In this document: piece after piece, positions 3,154 through 36,000 of the stretch
How positions within the stretch are numbered: position 1 is the stretch's first letter
How the letters are laid out: every line of letters begins with the position of its first letter
From: Microcaldota archaeon
GTDB taxonomy: Archaea > Micrarchaeota > Micrarchaeia > Norongarragalinales > JACRGE01
Length of the DNA: 44,252 nt
NCBI GenBank assembly: GCA_016212465.1
Contig: JACRGE010000020.1
Span: forward strand, 1 to 44,252
Direction: 5' to 3'
Notes under the pieces: model-generated
The model's input: only the letters and a program-made list of their open reading frames with translations
What the model was told of the DNA's origin: nothing
Database searches by the model: none
Program-made: the position numbers and the translations under genes

Positions 3154-3534
3154 TTATGTTTTAAGCCAAGTTTCCCACCAAGACCCGTATTTATTCAGTG
3201 TTTCTGTAAAGGCGGCATCAAGTTTATACTTTTTTGTTTGTTCGTCCTTGAAAATCATTCCCGCCCGTTCCAGCGCTAAACACAACAAATAGAGGGTGCT
3301 CTTGCTCGTGTTCAAATTCGTTAGCAGTTCTCCAAAGGTCTGTGGTTGTTGCTTCAAATTCTCCAAGAGGGAGATGGTAAGTTGTTTTTTAGGGTGTGAG
3401 AAGGTAAAACTGTTATTTATGAAATCAAAGATAGTGAACTGCGCGCTGGTTATTTTTGTAGCGTCCAATAGATCTACCTGAAAGCGTACGCGCGTGTGTT
3501 TCTTTTGCTTCAAATAGTGTCCTTCCAACCCCAC
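3154..3534 (-). CDS. Winged-helix transcriptional regulator (ArsR-like)
   Basis: FSHPKKQLTISLLENLKQQPQTFGELLTNLNTSKSTLYLLCLALERAGMIFKDEQTKKYKL. Confidence 0.6.
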   Translation of the reverse strand: MGLEGHYLKQKKHTRVRFQVDLLDATKITSAQFTIFDFINNSFTFSHPKKQLTISLLENLKQQPQTFGELLTNLNTSKSTLYLLCLALERAGMIFKDEQTKKYKLDAAFTETLNKYGSWWETWLKT

Positions 3535-3699
3535 ACGCCCCCCACACTTCCACTATTATCCTTGTATTTTCTATTTCTTAAATTAAAGAGGATAAAATTA
3601 AATAAAAAGTAAACGGCTCACCCAAAAGACATAAATATAAAAATTAATCACTTTATTCTTACGAAATCTGGTTTTATTTAAACAAAAATTATTGGAAGT

Positions 3700-4989
3700 G
3701 TGGTGAGTATGGGCGTTATTTTGTCTATTAAAGCAAGGGAAGTCCTGGACTCGCGCGGGAACCCCACTATTGAGGCGGAAGTATGCACGAAGGAAGGACT
3801 TTTTCGTTCAATGGTGCCCTCGGGTGCAAGTACGGGAGAAAAGGAAGCACTTGAATTAAGGGACGGGGGTTCAAGATATGGCGGGAAGGGGGTTTTGAAG
3901 GCAGTTGAGAACGTTAACAAAACAATTGCTCCAAGACTAATTGGCTTAAACCCCGAAAACCAGGCCGATATAGACGCGTTCATGATTGAGTTGGATGGCA
4001 CAGCCACAAAATCTCGGCTGGGTGCGAACGCCATCCTTTCCGTGAGCATGGCGGTTGCACAAGCAGGCGCTTGCTCCAAGGGCGTTCCATTATATCAACA
4101 CCTAGCGGAATTGGCTGACAACAAAAACCGCATTCTACCAACACCCCAGCTAAATGTGATGAACGGGGGCAAACATGCAGGAAGAGAGGAAGACATTCAG
4201 GAACTAATGCTTGCACCACTTCATTTTACTTCCTATAAAGAGGCGCTGAGGGCCTCAGTTGAAGCGTATTATGTTTTGGGGGGTTTGCTTAAGAAAAAGT
4301 ATGGGGCACAAGGAACCCTTCTCGGAGACGAGGGGGGGTTTGTTCCTCCTGTGAATTCAGCACAGGAGCGAATGGACCTAATGCTCAAAGCAATAGAAGA
4401 AGCCGGTTATGGAGGAAAGATTGAACTCGCAGTTGACTCTGCTTCAAGCGAGTTTTATGAAAACGGCGTTTACAAGTTGTATGGAAAAGCGTATTCAAGC
4501 GCAGAGTTAGTGGACTACTACACGGAATTGGTTGAAGTGTATCCCATCTATTCCTGGGAGGACGGAATGGCGGAAAACGATTGGGTGGGTTGGAAGGGAC
4601 TGACTTCAAAACTGGGTTCCAAAATCCAAATCGTTGGAGACGACGTGTTAGTTACAAACACCCAATTCATCAAACAAGCCATTTCGGAAAAAGCGTGCAA
4701 CGCGTTGTTGCTTAAATTCAACCAAATTGGTTCTGTTTCAGAAGGGATTGGCGCAGCCAACTTGTCGTTCAAGGCGGGTTGGGGGGTTGTAGAATCCCAT
4801 CGCTCGGGCGAAACCGAGGACTCCTTCATCGCGGATGCAGTAGTCGGCCTTGGCGCAGGTCAGTCAAAGTTCGGTGGGCCCGCCAGAAGCTCTAGGAATG
4901 CAAAATACAATCAATTGCTTAGGATAGAAGAAGCTCTAGGAAGCAAGGCGAGGTATGCTGGAAAAAATTTTAGAAAAGGGGGGAACTGA
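3700..4989 (+). CDS. eno: Enolase
   Basis: AREVLDSRGNPTIEAEV, GASTGEKEALELRD, SHRSGETEDSFIAD motifs. Start may be 3709. Confidence 0.97.
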   Translation: MVSMGVILSIKAREVLDSRGNPTIEAEVCTKEGLFRSMVPSGASTGEKEALELRDGGSRYGGKGVLKAVENVNKTIAPRLIGLNPENQADIDAFMIELDGTATKSRLGANAILSVSMAVAQAGACSKGVPLYQHLAELADNKNRILPTPQLNVMNGGKHAGREEDIQELMLAPLHFTSYKEALRASVEAYYVLGGLLKKKYGAQGTLLGDEGGFVPPVNSAQERMDLMLKAIEEAGYGGKIELAVDSASSEFYENGVYKLYGKAYSSAELVDYYTELVEVYPIYSWEDGMAENDWVGWKGLTSKLGSKIQIVGDDVLVTNTQFIKQAISEKACNALLLKFNQIGSVSEGIGAANLSFKAGWGVVESHRSGETEDSFIADAVVGLGAGQSKFGGPARSSRNAKYNQLLRIEEALGSKARYAGKNFRKGGN

Positions 4990-10831: not shown

Positions 10832-10915
10832 ATACTCCTTAACCTGCCTTCCTGCATTTAAATCAGCAAAACCATTAAATCCTTTTATTTCCCGCATTCA
10901 TTTGAAGGTGGTTGT

Positions 10916-11206
10916 ATGAGAATCGCTTTAGCACTGGGCGTGTTTTTGCTTGCAACGGGTTTGGTTCAAGCGGGTTACGTTTATTACTATCCTGCGTACT
11001 ATTATTCCTCCTATTACCCTCCTTCATACACTTACACGTGCACTTACTGCTATTCCTATAGCACGCAGTATTACTATCCGACCTATTATTACCCCCAATA
11101 CTATCCACCTACGTATTACTCTCGCTACTATGCTTACGACTATCCATATTATGCTCCGTACTACCACCGCTACTCCCCTTATTACACAACTTACCTAGAT
11201 CCTTGA
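10916..11206 (+). CDS. Secreted tyrosine-rich protein
   Basis: Signal-peptide-like MRIALALGVFLLATGLVQA followed by 77 residues with 36 Tyr; upstream GGTGG RBS-like sequence. Confidence 0.75.
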   Translation: MRIALALGVFLLATGLVQAGYVYYYPAYYYSSYYPPSYTYTCTYCYSYSTQYYYPTYYYPQYYPPTYYSRYYAYDYPYYAPYYHRYSPYYTTYLDP

Positions 11207-11472: not shown

Positions 11473-11628
11473 TTATTTCCTTGCAAGACCCTTTCTTTTA
11501 ATGAACACCCACAGCTTCTTCGTCATTTCGCTCGGAGTCACTGCTCCTGTTCCAAACACTTCGCCCACAGTGGCGTCCTTGACGCTTGCGAAGCTTATGG
11601 TGTATCCACCAAATGCTTTCTTTGCCAT
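11473..11628 (-). CDS. Small protein (51 aa), function unknown
   Basis: MAKKAFGGYTISFASVKDATVGEVFGTGAVTPSEMTKKLWVFIKRKGLARK, preceded by GAGGTGA. C-terminal TPSEMTKKLWVFIKRKGL vaguely SWIB-like. Below the ORF-track length cut. Confidence 0.6.
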   Translation of the reverse strand: MAKKAFGGYTISFASVKDATVGEVFGTGAVTPSEMTKKLWVFIKRKGLARK

Positions 11629-29434: not shown

Positions 29435-30595
29435 TTGATGAAATTGTTTGAAAAAAGTGGTCTGCTCTTTTTGCCCTTTCTTTCCGTCGCCGTTGTTCTA
29501 TTAATCCTGAGCGGAAACGTATTTGGAGAAAACTATACAAACGCCACGACCACATCCACATGGAATTATACGCCGACTTCAACTTGGGTTCCCTCTCCCT
29601 CTCCGACTGCCTCTCCTTCCGTTTCGCCGACGCCCTCACCTATACCCTCAAACTGTTCTGATTCCGATGGAGGATACAATGTTTATACCAAAGGCACTTG
29701 CGCTCCTTGGGGCGGCACGGATTACTGCGCTTCCTCAACGGTTTTGCATGAATTTACTTGTGTTGCAGAACCCGGCTGTGTTTCTTATAACACGACCTGC
29801 CCCGTTGGATATAATTGTTTGAATGGCGCGTGCGTTCCTTCAACTAACGTGACGAACTGCACTGATTCAGATGGCGGATACAACATCTATACTCGAGGCT
29901 CCTGTTACTCTAGCGTTTACGGGTACTCTCTGTATGACTACTGCCTCAGCTCTTCTCAGCTCGTGGAGTTCTACTGCTCTGCTGGCGCGTGCAGGAATTC
30001 AACAGTCACTTGTCCATCTGGTTACACCTGCTCTGTCGGCGCGTGCGTCCGCTCTTCAGTTCAATGCAACAAAGCCCCCTCAGTTTCCATTACTCCTTCT
30101 CTTCAGTATGGTTTGCTTGGCCAGACCTTGAATTATACCGTGAATATCCAGAGCATGGACGACAAGGGGTGTAATGCAACGTATTTCAGTATCATGACCC
30201 AGAGCGTTCCCTTCGGTTGGAGGACGTGGCTTTCGACGTATTCAGTAAGGCTTTCTCCAGGCGAGTTGAAGAAGGTTATTGTTTATGTGACTTCGCCTGC
30301 CAACGTCAGGCCATGTGGCGACTACTATTTCGGGGTGAAGGCAACGGCTTCATACTCTGGTGCTTCAAGGAGCGCTTACGCGATGTATGGCTTGGCTGCA
30401 GGTGCAACCACGCCTACCGGGAGTGGTTCAGGCCAAGCAGGTCTTGCAGCCTCATCATCCTTGCCAGGGATGGACGTCATTACTATGCTATTGCAGCTGT
30501 TGATTCTGCTTGGTCTAGTGGTTTTCATATACGATCTCAGAACTAGGAAAGCTCCAGCTAAGGCAGAGTCAAAAGCCCCAGAAAAGAAGAAATAG
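29435..30595 (+). CDS. Cell-surface protein: signal peptide, Ser/Thr/Pro stalk, two Cys-rich repeats, NEW3-like domain, C-terminal TM
   Basis: NCSDSDGGYNVYTKGTC... and NCTDSDGGYNIYTRGSC... repeats, MLLQLLILLGLVVFIYDLRTRK. Confidence 0.8.
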   Translation: MMKLFEKSGLLFLPFLSVAVVLLILSGNVFGENYTNATTTSTWNYTPTSTWVPSPSPTASPSVSPTPSPIPSNCSDSDGGYNVYTKGTCAPWGGTDYCASSTVLHEFTCVAEPGCVSYNTTCPVGYNCLNGACVPSTNVTNCTDSDGGYNIYTRGSCYSSVYGYSLYDYCLSSSQLVEFYCSAGACRNSTVTCPSGYTCSVGACVRSSVQCNKAPSVSITPSLQYGLLGQTLNYTVNIQSMDDKGCNATYFSIMTQSVPFGWRTWLSTYSVRLSPGELKKVIVYVTSPANVRPCGDYYFGVKATASYSGASRSAYAMYGLAAGATTPTGSGSGQAGLAASSSLPGMDVITMLLQLLILLGLVVFIYDLRTRKAPAKAESKAPEKKK

Positions 30596-34749: not shown

Positions 34750-36000
34750 CTACCTTCTTTTCACTTGTTTTTGAGCCTGTTTTTTGCGTTGTTTTCTTTT
34801 CTGCAGGAAGTAATAGATTATGAAGCAGGCTATGAGGACGATAACCATCACTAGTGCTGTCGTGAATGCGTCCAACTCGGGAAAGTAGATTACAAGACTT
34901 GCTTTTCCTGCGGCATAACCTGACGGAGCCTGGACTGAAGCATTTACTCCGCCGATCTCGTATATCGCATAAGCAGTTTTTGAAGCCCCCATTGAATTAA
35001 CTGCAGTTGCCCCAAAATAGTAGCTGCCACAGGGTTTGATATTCGTTGGTGGGGTCATATACAAGAAAACCCTCCTGAGTTCCCCTGGTGCCATTTTTAG
35101 AGCATAAGCCGAGAGCACAGCTCGCCACCCATAAGGGATGCTTGCAGGCGTAAGGTTGAATACGCTAGGGCTACAGCTGCTGTTGTCCGTGCTTTGGACA
35201 TTCACAATGTACGCGAGACTTCGGCCGAGCGTTCCATACTGAGTTCCAGGATTTATAGAAATAGCTGGAGAGCTATTGCACTGCATCCCCTTTGATGGGG
35301 TTGGTTCGACTGGCGGGTTTATACTGGCGTTCCTTCCCTCGCTTATTATATAATACCCTCTTCCATAGCCCAAAAGGTTGTTTGCAGTTGCGTAGATAAT
35401 AAACAGATGATTCACGTGGGGGGTAGCGTTGGCTGAAGGTAGGACGCTGAAGTTGACTACAGTACTTTGATTCGGCGCGAGATAAACAGTCTTCTCCATT
35501 GAATAGTTTCCCGCATCACCCGCAAGGTGAAAGAGGTTTATCATGCTTGGTGTACAGTATTGCTTGTCATTGTTTTTTATTGCCACCGAATAACTGATGC
35601 CTTGGCGGAAATAACTGTATTGCCGGTAAGGGTATACTGCGACTGAGGGCGGCGCTCGCACGCAGCCCGTTGGATATGCACTCTTTGAGAGACTGCATGC
35701 TCCATTTAAACAGGCTTGCTCAGAAGGACAAGGCACCGTAAGGTAGCTGCAACCGCGCTCGGAGCAATATGCTTCGCGCACTGCACTGGAATTCACGCAG
35801 TAGTCTGTCAAGTAGGTTATAGCCGCGCCGTATGTCAAAGAGTCCGTGGACAAGCAGCTTCCGCGGATACTGGGGTTTTGCTCTCCATCGGAGTCAATGC
35901 AGTTGATTGCTCCGACAATTGCAGCAGTGAATAAAAACAGATAGATGGAAACGAGGACCAAGCGACGATGTAAACTCCTTGCAATCATCCCGGCACCCAT
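34750..36000 (-). CDS. Cell-surface protein paralogous to 29435-30595
   Basis: NCIDSDGEQNPSIRGSC...CPSEQACLNGAC; INPGTQYGTLGRSLAYIVNVQSTDNSSCSPSVFNLTPASIPYGWRAVLSAYALKMAPGELRRVFLYMTPP; C-terminal TM. Confidence 0.8.
   Translation of the reverse strand: MGAGMIARSLHRRLVLVSIYLFLFTAAIVGAINCIDSDGEQNPSIRGSCLSTDSLTYGAAITYLTDYCVNSSAVREAYCSERGCSYLTVPCPSEQACLNGACSLSKSAYPTGCVRAPPSVAVYPYRQYSYFRQGISYSVAIKNNDKQYCTPSMINLFHLAGDAGNYSMEKTVYLAPNQSTVVNFSVLPSANATPHVNHLFIIYATANNLLGYGRGYYIISEGRNASINPPVEPTPSKGMQCNSSPAISINPGTQYGTLGRSLAYIVNVQSTDNSSCSPSVFNLTPASIPYGWRAVLSAYALKMAPGELRRVFLYMTPPTNIKPCGSYYFGATAVNSMGASKTAYAIYEIGGVNASVQAPSGYAAGKASLVIYFPELDAFTTALVMVIVLIACFIIYYFLQKRKQRKKQAQKQVKRR

Follow-up and report, generated by a model that had tools for sequence, protein, structure and literature searches.

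Tyrosine-rich segments are a feature of the coccidian oocyst-wall proteins GAM56 and GAM82, peptides of which are believed to be dityrosine cross-linked (PMC2726925). In proteome surveys, low-complexity sequences of the Y-G class are less represented in archaea and bacteria than in eukaryotes (PMC11132505), and at the scale of a short peptide, YYACAYY forms sheets via disulfide dimers and, with copper, catalyses oxidative polymerisation (PMC6382316). In the literature searched, no secreted tyrosine-based material of the kind considered here is described in archaea. The ORF reported below lies in a 44,252-nucleotide stretch of DNA, here called the window, from a micrarchaeal genome (G000; 1.2 Mb in 104 contigs, 91% complete) and, judged from its sequence, is very probably a real gene for an extreme secreted Tyr-Pro protein. 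That the host is a micrarchaeon (phylum Microcaldota in the NCBI taxonomy) follows from G162, a genome of the same class, which matches a contig of Candidatus Micrarchaeota archaeon FK3.bin165 at 100% identity over 2,496 bases.

The tyrosine-rich ORF and its surroundings

A recount reproduced exactly the ORF of the original prediction (10916-11206) and its tyrosine content, 36 of 77 mature residues (47%), for which the binomial chance is ~1e-29 at p = 0.04 (Table 1). The rest of the mature chain consists of 11 P, 8 T, 7 S, 3 A, two each of C, Q, R and D, and one each of G, V, H and L, and this chain has a mass of ~10 kDa and a calculated pI of 6.7 and is nearly uncharged. The Tyr-Pro pattern, the few charges and the CTYC pair that had been pointed out are all correct by composition count; cysteine is confined to CTYC and the C-terminal end reads YYTTYLDP. 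Taken over its full length the ORF is 37.5% tyrosine, the runner-up among the 183 window ORFs of at least 60 aa being 7.7% and the mean of the long window ORFs 3.6%. An anchor domain is absent from the ORF.

Table 1. Features of the tyrosine-rich ORF, in window positions
Feature	Position	Strand	Basis or remark
TATA-like box TTTAAATC, ~52 nt upstream of ATG	10857..10864	+	read by eye; putative
Ribosome-binding site AGGTG, 5 nt upstream of ATG	10906..10910	+	match of at least 5 nt in 3.5% of shuffles
Tyr-rich secreted-type protein ORF, 96 aa	10916..11206	+	ATG to TGA
Signal peptide MRIALALGVFLLATGLVQA	10916..10972	+	VQA/G cleavage by (-3,-1) rule; AlphaFold2 helix residues 2-24
Mature chain GYVYYYPAYYYSSYYPPSYTYTCTYCYSYSTQYYYPTYYYPQYYPPTYYSRYYAYDYPYYAPYYHRYSPYYTTYLDP, 77 aa, 47% Tyr, 14% Pro	10973..11203	+	predicted to be without structure
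First Tyr-Pro block YYYPAYYYSSYYPPS	10982..11028	+	internal repeat family D1
CTYC (CxxC), between both Tyr-Pro blocks	11039..11050	+	sequence
Second Tyr-Pro block YYYPTYYYPQYYPPT	11069..11115	+	repeat family D1; 70% DNA identity to first block

The signal-peptide-like start was confirmed, with a cleavage site at VQA/G that conforms to the (-3,-1) rule, and this start, the AGGTG site, the TATA-like box and the mixture of TAC and TAT codons make the ORF resemble a real gene. Its 36 tyrosine codons are 18 TAC intermingled with 18 TAT, and all 36 of its TAN codons are TAY. Tandem Repeats Finder detected no DNA array in the ORF, and a nucleotide tandem repeat was therefore rejected as its origin. 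The periodicity attributed to the Tyr-Pro pattern stands in part: tyrosine spacing is significant at lag 4, one of 15 lags examined (z = 3.3, p = 0.0008), but as only this lag is clearly so, the periodicity is irregular, and the YYxxYY and YYxPx units are fairly described as periodic without any exact repeat. The codon mixture, the restriction of TAN to TAY, the lag-4 spacing and the missing array are internal signs of constraint at the protein level. The two Tyr-Pro blocks that flank CTYC form a weak internal duplication (70% identity), a hint of an old duplication. In single-sequence mode, AlphaFold2 placed a confident helix solely at residues 2-24 and gave the mature chain a pLDDT of ~40, consistent with a chain that is predicted to be disordered and likewise expected for any orphan low-complexity chain.

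On one side the ORF is flanked by a 344-aa gene on the same strand and on the other by a small gene on the opposite strand; the 51-aa gene that faces it (11473-11628, -) appears to encode a truncated SWIB/MDM2-like protein (E 0.005, below the curated cut-off). Elsewhere in the window, 29435-30595 (+) and 34750-36000 (-) encode related-looking secreted proteins of 386 and 416 aa, respectively, that share segments with Cys, are anchored in the membrane at the C-terminus and match nothing in Pfam above cut-off.

Searches for homologues

No credible homologue of the window protein was found in G000, in 40 relatives, in 301 genomes of the phylum, in contigs of GTDB genomes or in IMG/VR viral contigs. 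Pfam, PHROGs and NCBIfam profiles gave no match above cut-off (best NCBIfam E 0.11), and the best match among solved structures had an E of ~7. Two loci, L002 (E 0.03) and L003 (E 0.006), were rejected as homologues and taken as noise because their frames contain stops and, in L002, the frame read is not tyrosine-rich. The original prediction had looked to conservation of the reading frame in relatives. None was found for the exact ORF, a result that is not decisive because G000 is the sole genome of its family, and likewise of its genus, in the comparison set.

As low-complexity sequence defeats homology searches, tyrosine patterns were used instead and the matches were then checked by reading the ORFs around each. 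Across the phylum, the pattern YYxxYYxxYY matched mostly AT-rich chance or ordinary frames, and this search gave no ORF outside G000 with more than 32% tyrosine. A viral origin was also rejected: what the viral contigs with a Tyr-Pro pattern contain is stray frames of short length, tails of the YYYPxYYYP type and proteins like those of Bacteroidota, all of which resemble the window protein in motif alone, and the window protein has no PHROGs match. Several viral contigs (L235, L241, L262) encode an 82-aa secreted-looking protein that carries QYVNVPVQ repeats and whose tail reads YYYPTYYYPIYYYP.

Tyrosine-rich secreted proteins in the same order

Apart from G000, the order is represented by 28 genomes (29 in all), and at least 7 of these encode short secreted-type tyrosine-rich proteins with 18-32% tyrosine in the mature chain, a lower bound given that only pattern-bearing ORFs were read and the assemblies are incomplete. 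The genomes are G003 and G026 (116/112 aa and 91/90 aa), G016 (127 aa), G021 (120+ aa) and G025 (116 aa) in the archaeal family f4, and G007 (about 154 aa) and G011 (138 and 291 aa) in the family f2; those proteins scanned have no Pfam match above cut-off. The G003, G016 and G021 proteins are mutually homologous within f4 (shuffle z 4.8 to 12.3). G003 and G026, which are two species of one genus, each have two tandem tyrosine-rich genes (L359 on G003:C18, L360 on G026:C79), and the orthologue pairs have Nei-Gojobori dN/dS values of 0.12/0.52 (0.23) and 0.21/0.96 (0.21). Ratios of ~0.2 show that these tandem genes are real and under purifying selection. In the longer pair, tyrosine is kept at 26 of 28 sites, five of them through synonymous change, although conservation at the tyrosine sites does not significantly exceed that at the remaining sites (p = 0.14). 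Several of the order's proteins end in a cysteine motif (CGWNC, CANGWC, CAGWRC or GYYVC), which makes tyrosine with cysteine a repeated design.

As in the window protein, an N-terminal signal peptide precedes a short tyrosine-rich chain in the order set, including the f4 group (G003, G016, G021, G026), with YYxP or YSYSY segments, few charges and, in most, Cys pairs. In contrast, the window protein has neither the C-terminal Cys motif in which most of the order's proteins end nor the GFG-type start of the f4 set, and its 47% tyrosine compares with their 18-32%. Scored against the G003, G016 and G021 proteins, it does not rise above composition-preserving shuffles (z -0.1 to 1.3), nor does it do so against any same-order protein, and the f4 profile A2 gave zero matches in G000 at E<=1. 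Because there is no similarity above shuffles or to the f4 profile, the window ORF appears to share a design rather than demonstrable ancestry with the order set, as would fit either convergence or saturation. By these alignments, the conservation shown is that of the look-alikes and not of the window gene itself. A shared neighbourhood was considered and rejected, as no window gene matched the flanks of the relatives' tyrosine-rich genes. At L416:4696-7569 (G000:C94), G000 also encodes a 957-aa secreted protein that has a transmembrane segment at its C-terminus and contains the stretch GYGYDYGTLSYGYNEEGGYGYSYGYGY; in G002, a 662-aa protein (L419) has a tyrosine-rich stretch similar to this one.

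A possible coat or adhesive and its alternatives

The explanation that we favour, with about even confidence, is that the window ORF encodes an exported, disordered and self-associating coat or adhesive peptide, secreted or at the surface of the micrarchaeon. We infer that the gene is expressed and its product exported. Removal of the signal peptide would leave a neutral, intrinsically disordered Tyr/Pro low-complexity chain to be placed, presumably, at the cell surface or outside as a coat or adhesive. The many tyrosine side chains could then provide pi-stacking and hydrogen-bonded cohesion, from chain to chain and to other surfaces, with proline holding the chain extended, the two cysteines of CTYC stapling chains through disulfides and oxidative Tyr-Tyr links possibly adding to the cohesion. 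In favour of this reading are the signal peptide and AGGTG site, the 36 tyrosines with mixed codons, the lack of a predicted fold in the mature chain, the look-alikes of the same order with their Cys motifs and, in one species pair, purifying selection, and the YYACAYY and oocyst-wall precedents; against it stand the missing homologue, a similarity to relatives no greater than that of shuffles, the lack of an anchor domain and the restriction to a single genome. We offer more tentatively the wider idea that a tyrosine-based material is built and secreted by the micrarchaea of this order, one that is cohesive, disulfide- and possibly Tyr-cross-linked and, in some species, accompanied by cupredoxins, and of which the window protein would be the extreme form.

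It is doubtful that the secreted chain is instead hardened into an insoluble layer by oxidative cross-linking of its tyrosines, by analogy with what is proposed for coccidian oocyst walls. The very high tyrosine content and that precedent (PMC2726925) speak for such a coat, as does the presence in G000 of cupredoxins with export signals, one beside ETF- and ferredoxin-type genes and the other within a copper P-type ATPase cluster (identities read by eye), but no Cu-oxidase_3 (laccase-type) domain was found in G000 or in the relatives with short tyrosine-rich proteins. A laccase in G000 was rejected on this result, which covers the Cu-oxidase_3 domain of multicopper oxidases in a ~91% complete genome.

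That the ORF is a drifting low-complexity orphan, its frame open by Tyr-Pro codon expansion and with no selected function, is rather unlikely. Low-complexity sequence arises readily, and the lack of a detectable homologue and the weak internal duplication are as such an origin would predict; it leaves unexplained, however, a signal peptide, a ribosome site and 36 of 36 TAN codons that specify tyrosine with mixed third bases, as well as the recurrence of the same design in relatives and the purifying selection in one species pair.

A role for the tyrosines as electron-hopping sites, or together with His/Cys as copper ligands, in which they would work with secreted cupredoxins to handle electrons or copper outside the cell, is unlikely. 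It draws on G007, in which the gene directly downstream of a tyrosine-rich gene (3223-3903, -, of L356; G007:C24:71000-77000), also on the minus strand, encodes a 307-aa tyrosine-rich protein with a C-terminal cupredoxin domain, a pair that looks like an operon. The best PDB matches of this domain are to copper nitrite reductase (E 7e-8) and the CuA domain of cytochrome oxidase (E 2e-4), with an E of only 0.058 to Pfam Cupredoxin_1. G000 itself has two cupredoxins. However, the adjacency occurs in one genome only, the window ORF has a single His and no metal-site pattern, and the cupredoxin clue is weak because cupredoxins are present in 26 of the 29 genomes of the order, whether or not tyrosine-rich proteins were found there. 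For the window protein, both dityrosine cross-linking and electron hopping are possible but unsupported. At L418 (G000:C4:4591-4866, -), a plastocyanin-like lipoprotein gene adjoins electron-transfer flavoprotein, ferredoxin-containing and oxidase-like genes (by reading), a neighbourhood that could be a possible extracytoplasmic electron route.

It is very unlikely that putative glycosylation or sulfation of the tyrosines, the hydroxyls of which are known modification sites in general, mediates attachment to a host cell, a reading that is encouraged by the membership of the phylum in DPANN; no modifying enzyme is seen beside the gene.

If the window protein is, as we favour, a coat or adhesive, tyrosine-rich structural material like that of parasite walls and animal adhesives would be made even by DPANN archaea, whose genomes are very small, and the protein would offer a testable handle on how DPANN cells attach to a host or a surface. 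With the order-level set and its purifying selection, what was one odd ORF becomes a recurrent class that can be tested, the Tyr-cupredoxin neighbour pair provides a specific chemical lead, and the peptides are small and easily synthesised.

Comparison with known systems

Outside the phylum, Methanothrix (Methanosaeta) sp. PtaB.Bin018 has an 83-aa ORF (L121) that shares with the window protein a signal-peptide-like start, YYYP motifs and a high tyrosine content (38% of the mature chain), but has no Cys and a Trp-rich end; the two score slightly above shuffles (z 2.3). A Bathyarchaeota genome encodes a 418-aa protein with tyrosine-rich segments. With these and the same-order relatives all encoding tyrosine-rich secreted proteins, the statement in the original prediction that there is no archaeal equivalent was wrong.

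Exported-looking proteins with YYGPxYY or YYYPxYY stretches are present in many Proteobacteria and Bacteroidota. The secreted proteins and lipoproteins of Pseudomonas, Bradyrhizobium and Bacteroidota that contain them resemble the window protein in their exported appearance and pentad-like Tyr-Pro pattern but are usually Gly-, His- or Arg-rich, often form part of larger proteins and have less tyrosine over the whole chain. Among the complete short secreted ORFs read, 47% tyrosine across the entire mature chain is the highest value. A comparison with the XYPPX repeats of rhodopsin and annexin tails, for which no literature source was found, was set aside.

By composition, the window ORF fits the class of Y-rich low-complexity domains, which is a survey class rather than a family, with Pro as its secondary residue in place of the Gly of the Y-G class. 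GAM56 and GAM82 are, like the window protein, secreted-type chains with tyrosine-rich segments, but they are eukaryotic and are made as larger precursors that are processed to peptides, and kinship with the window protein is not to be expected. In make-up, the YYACAYY peptide is similar to the window protein.
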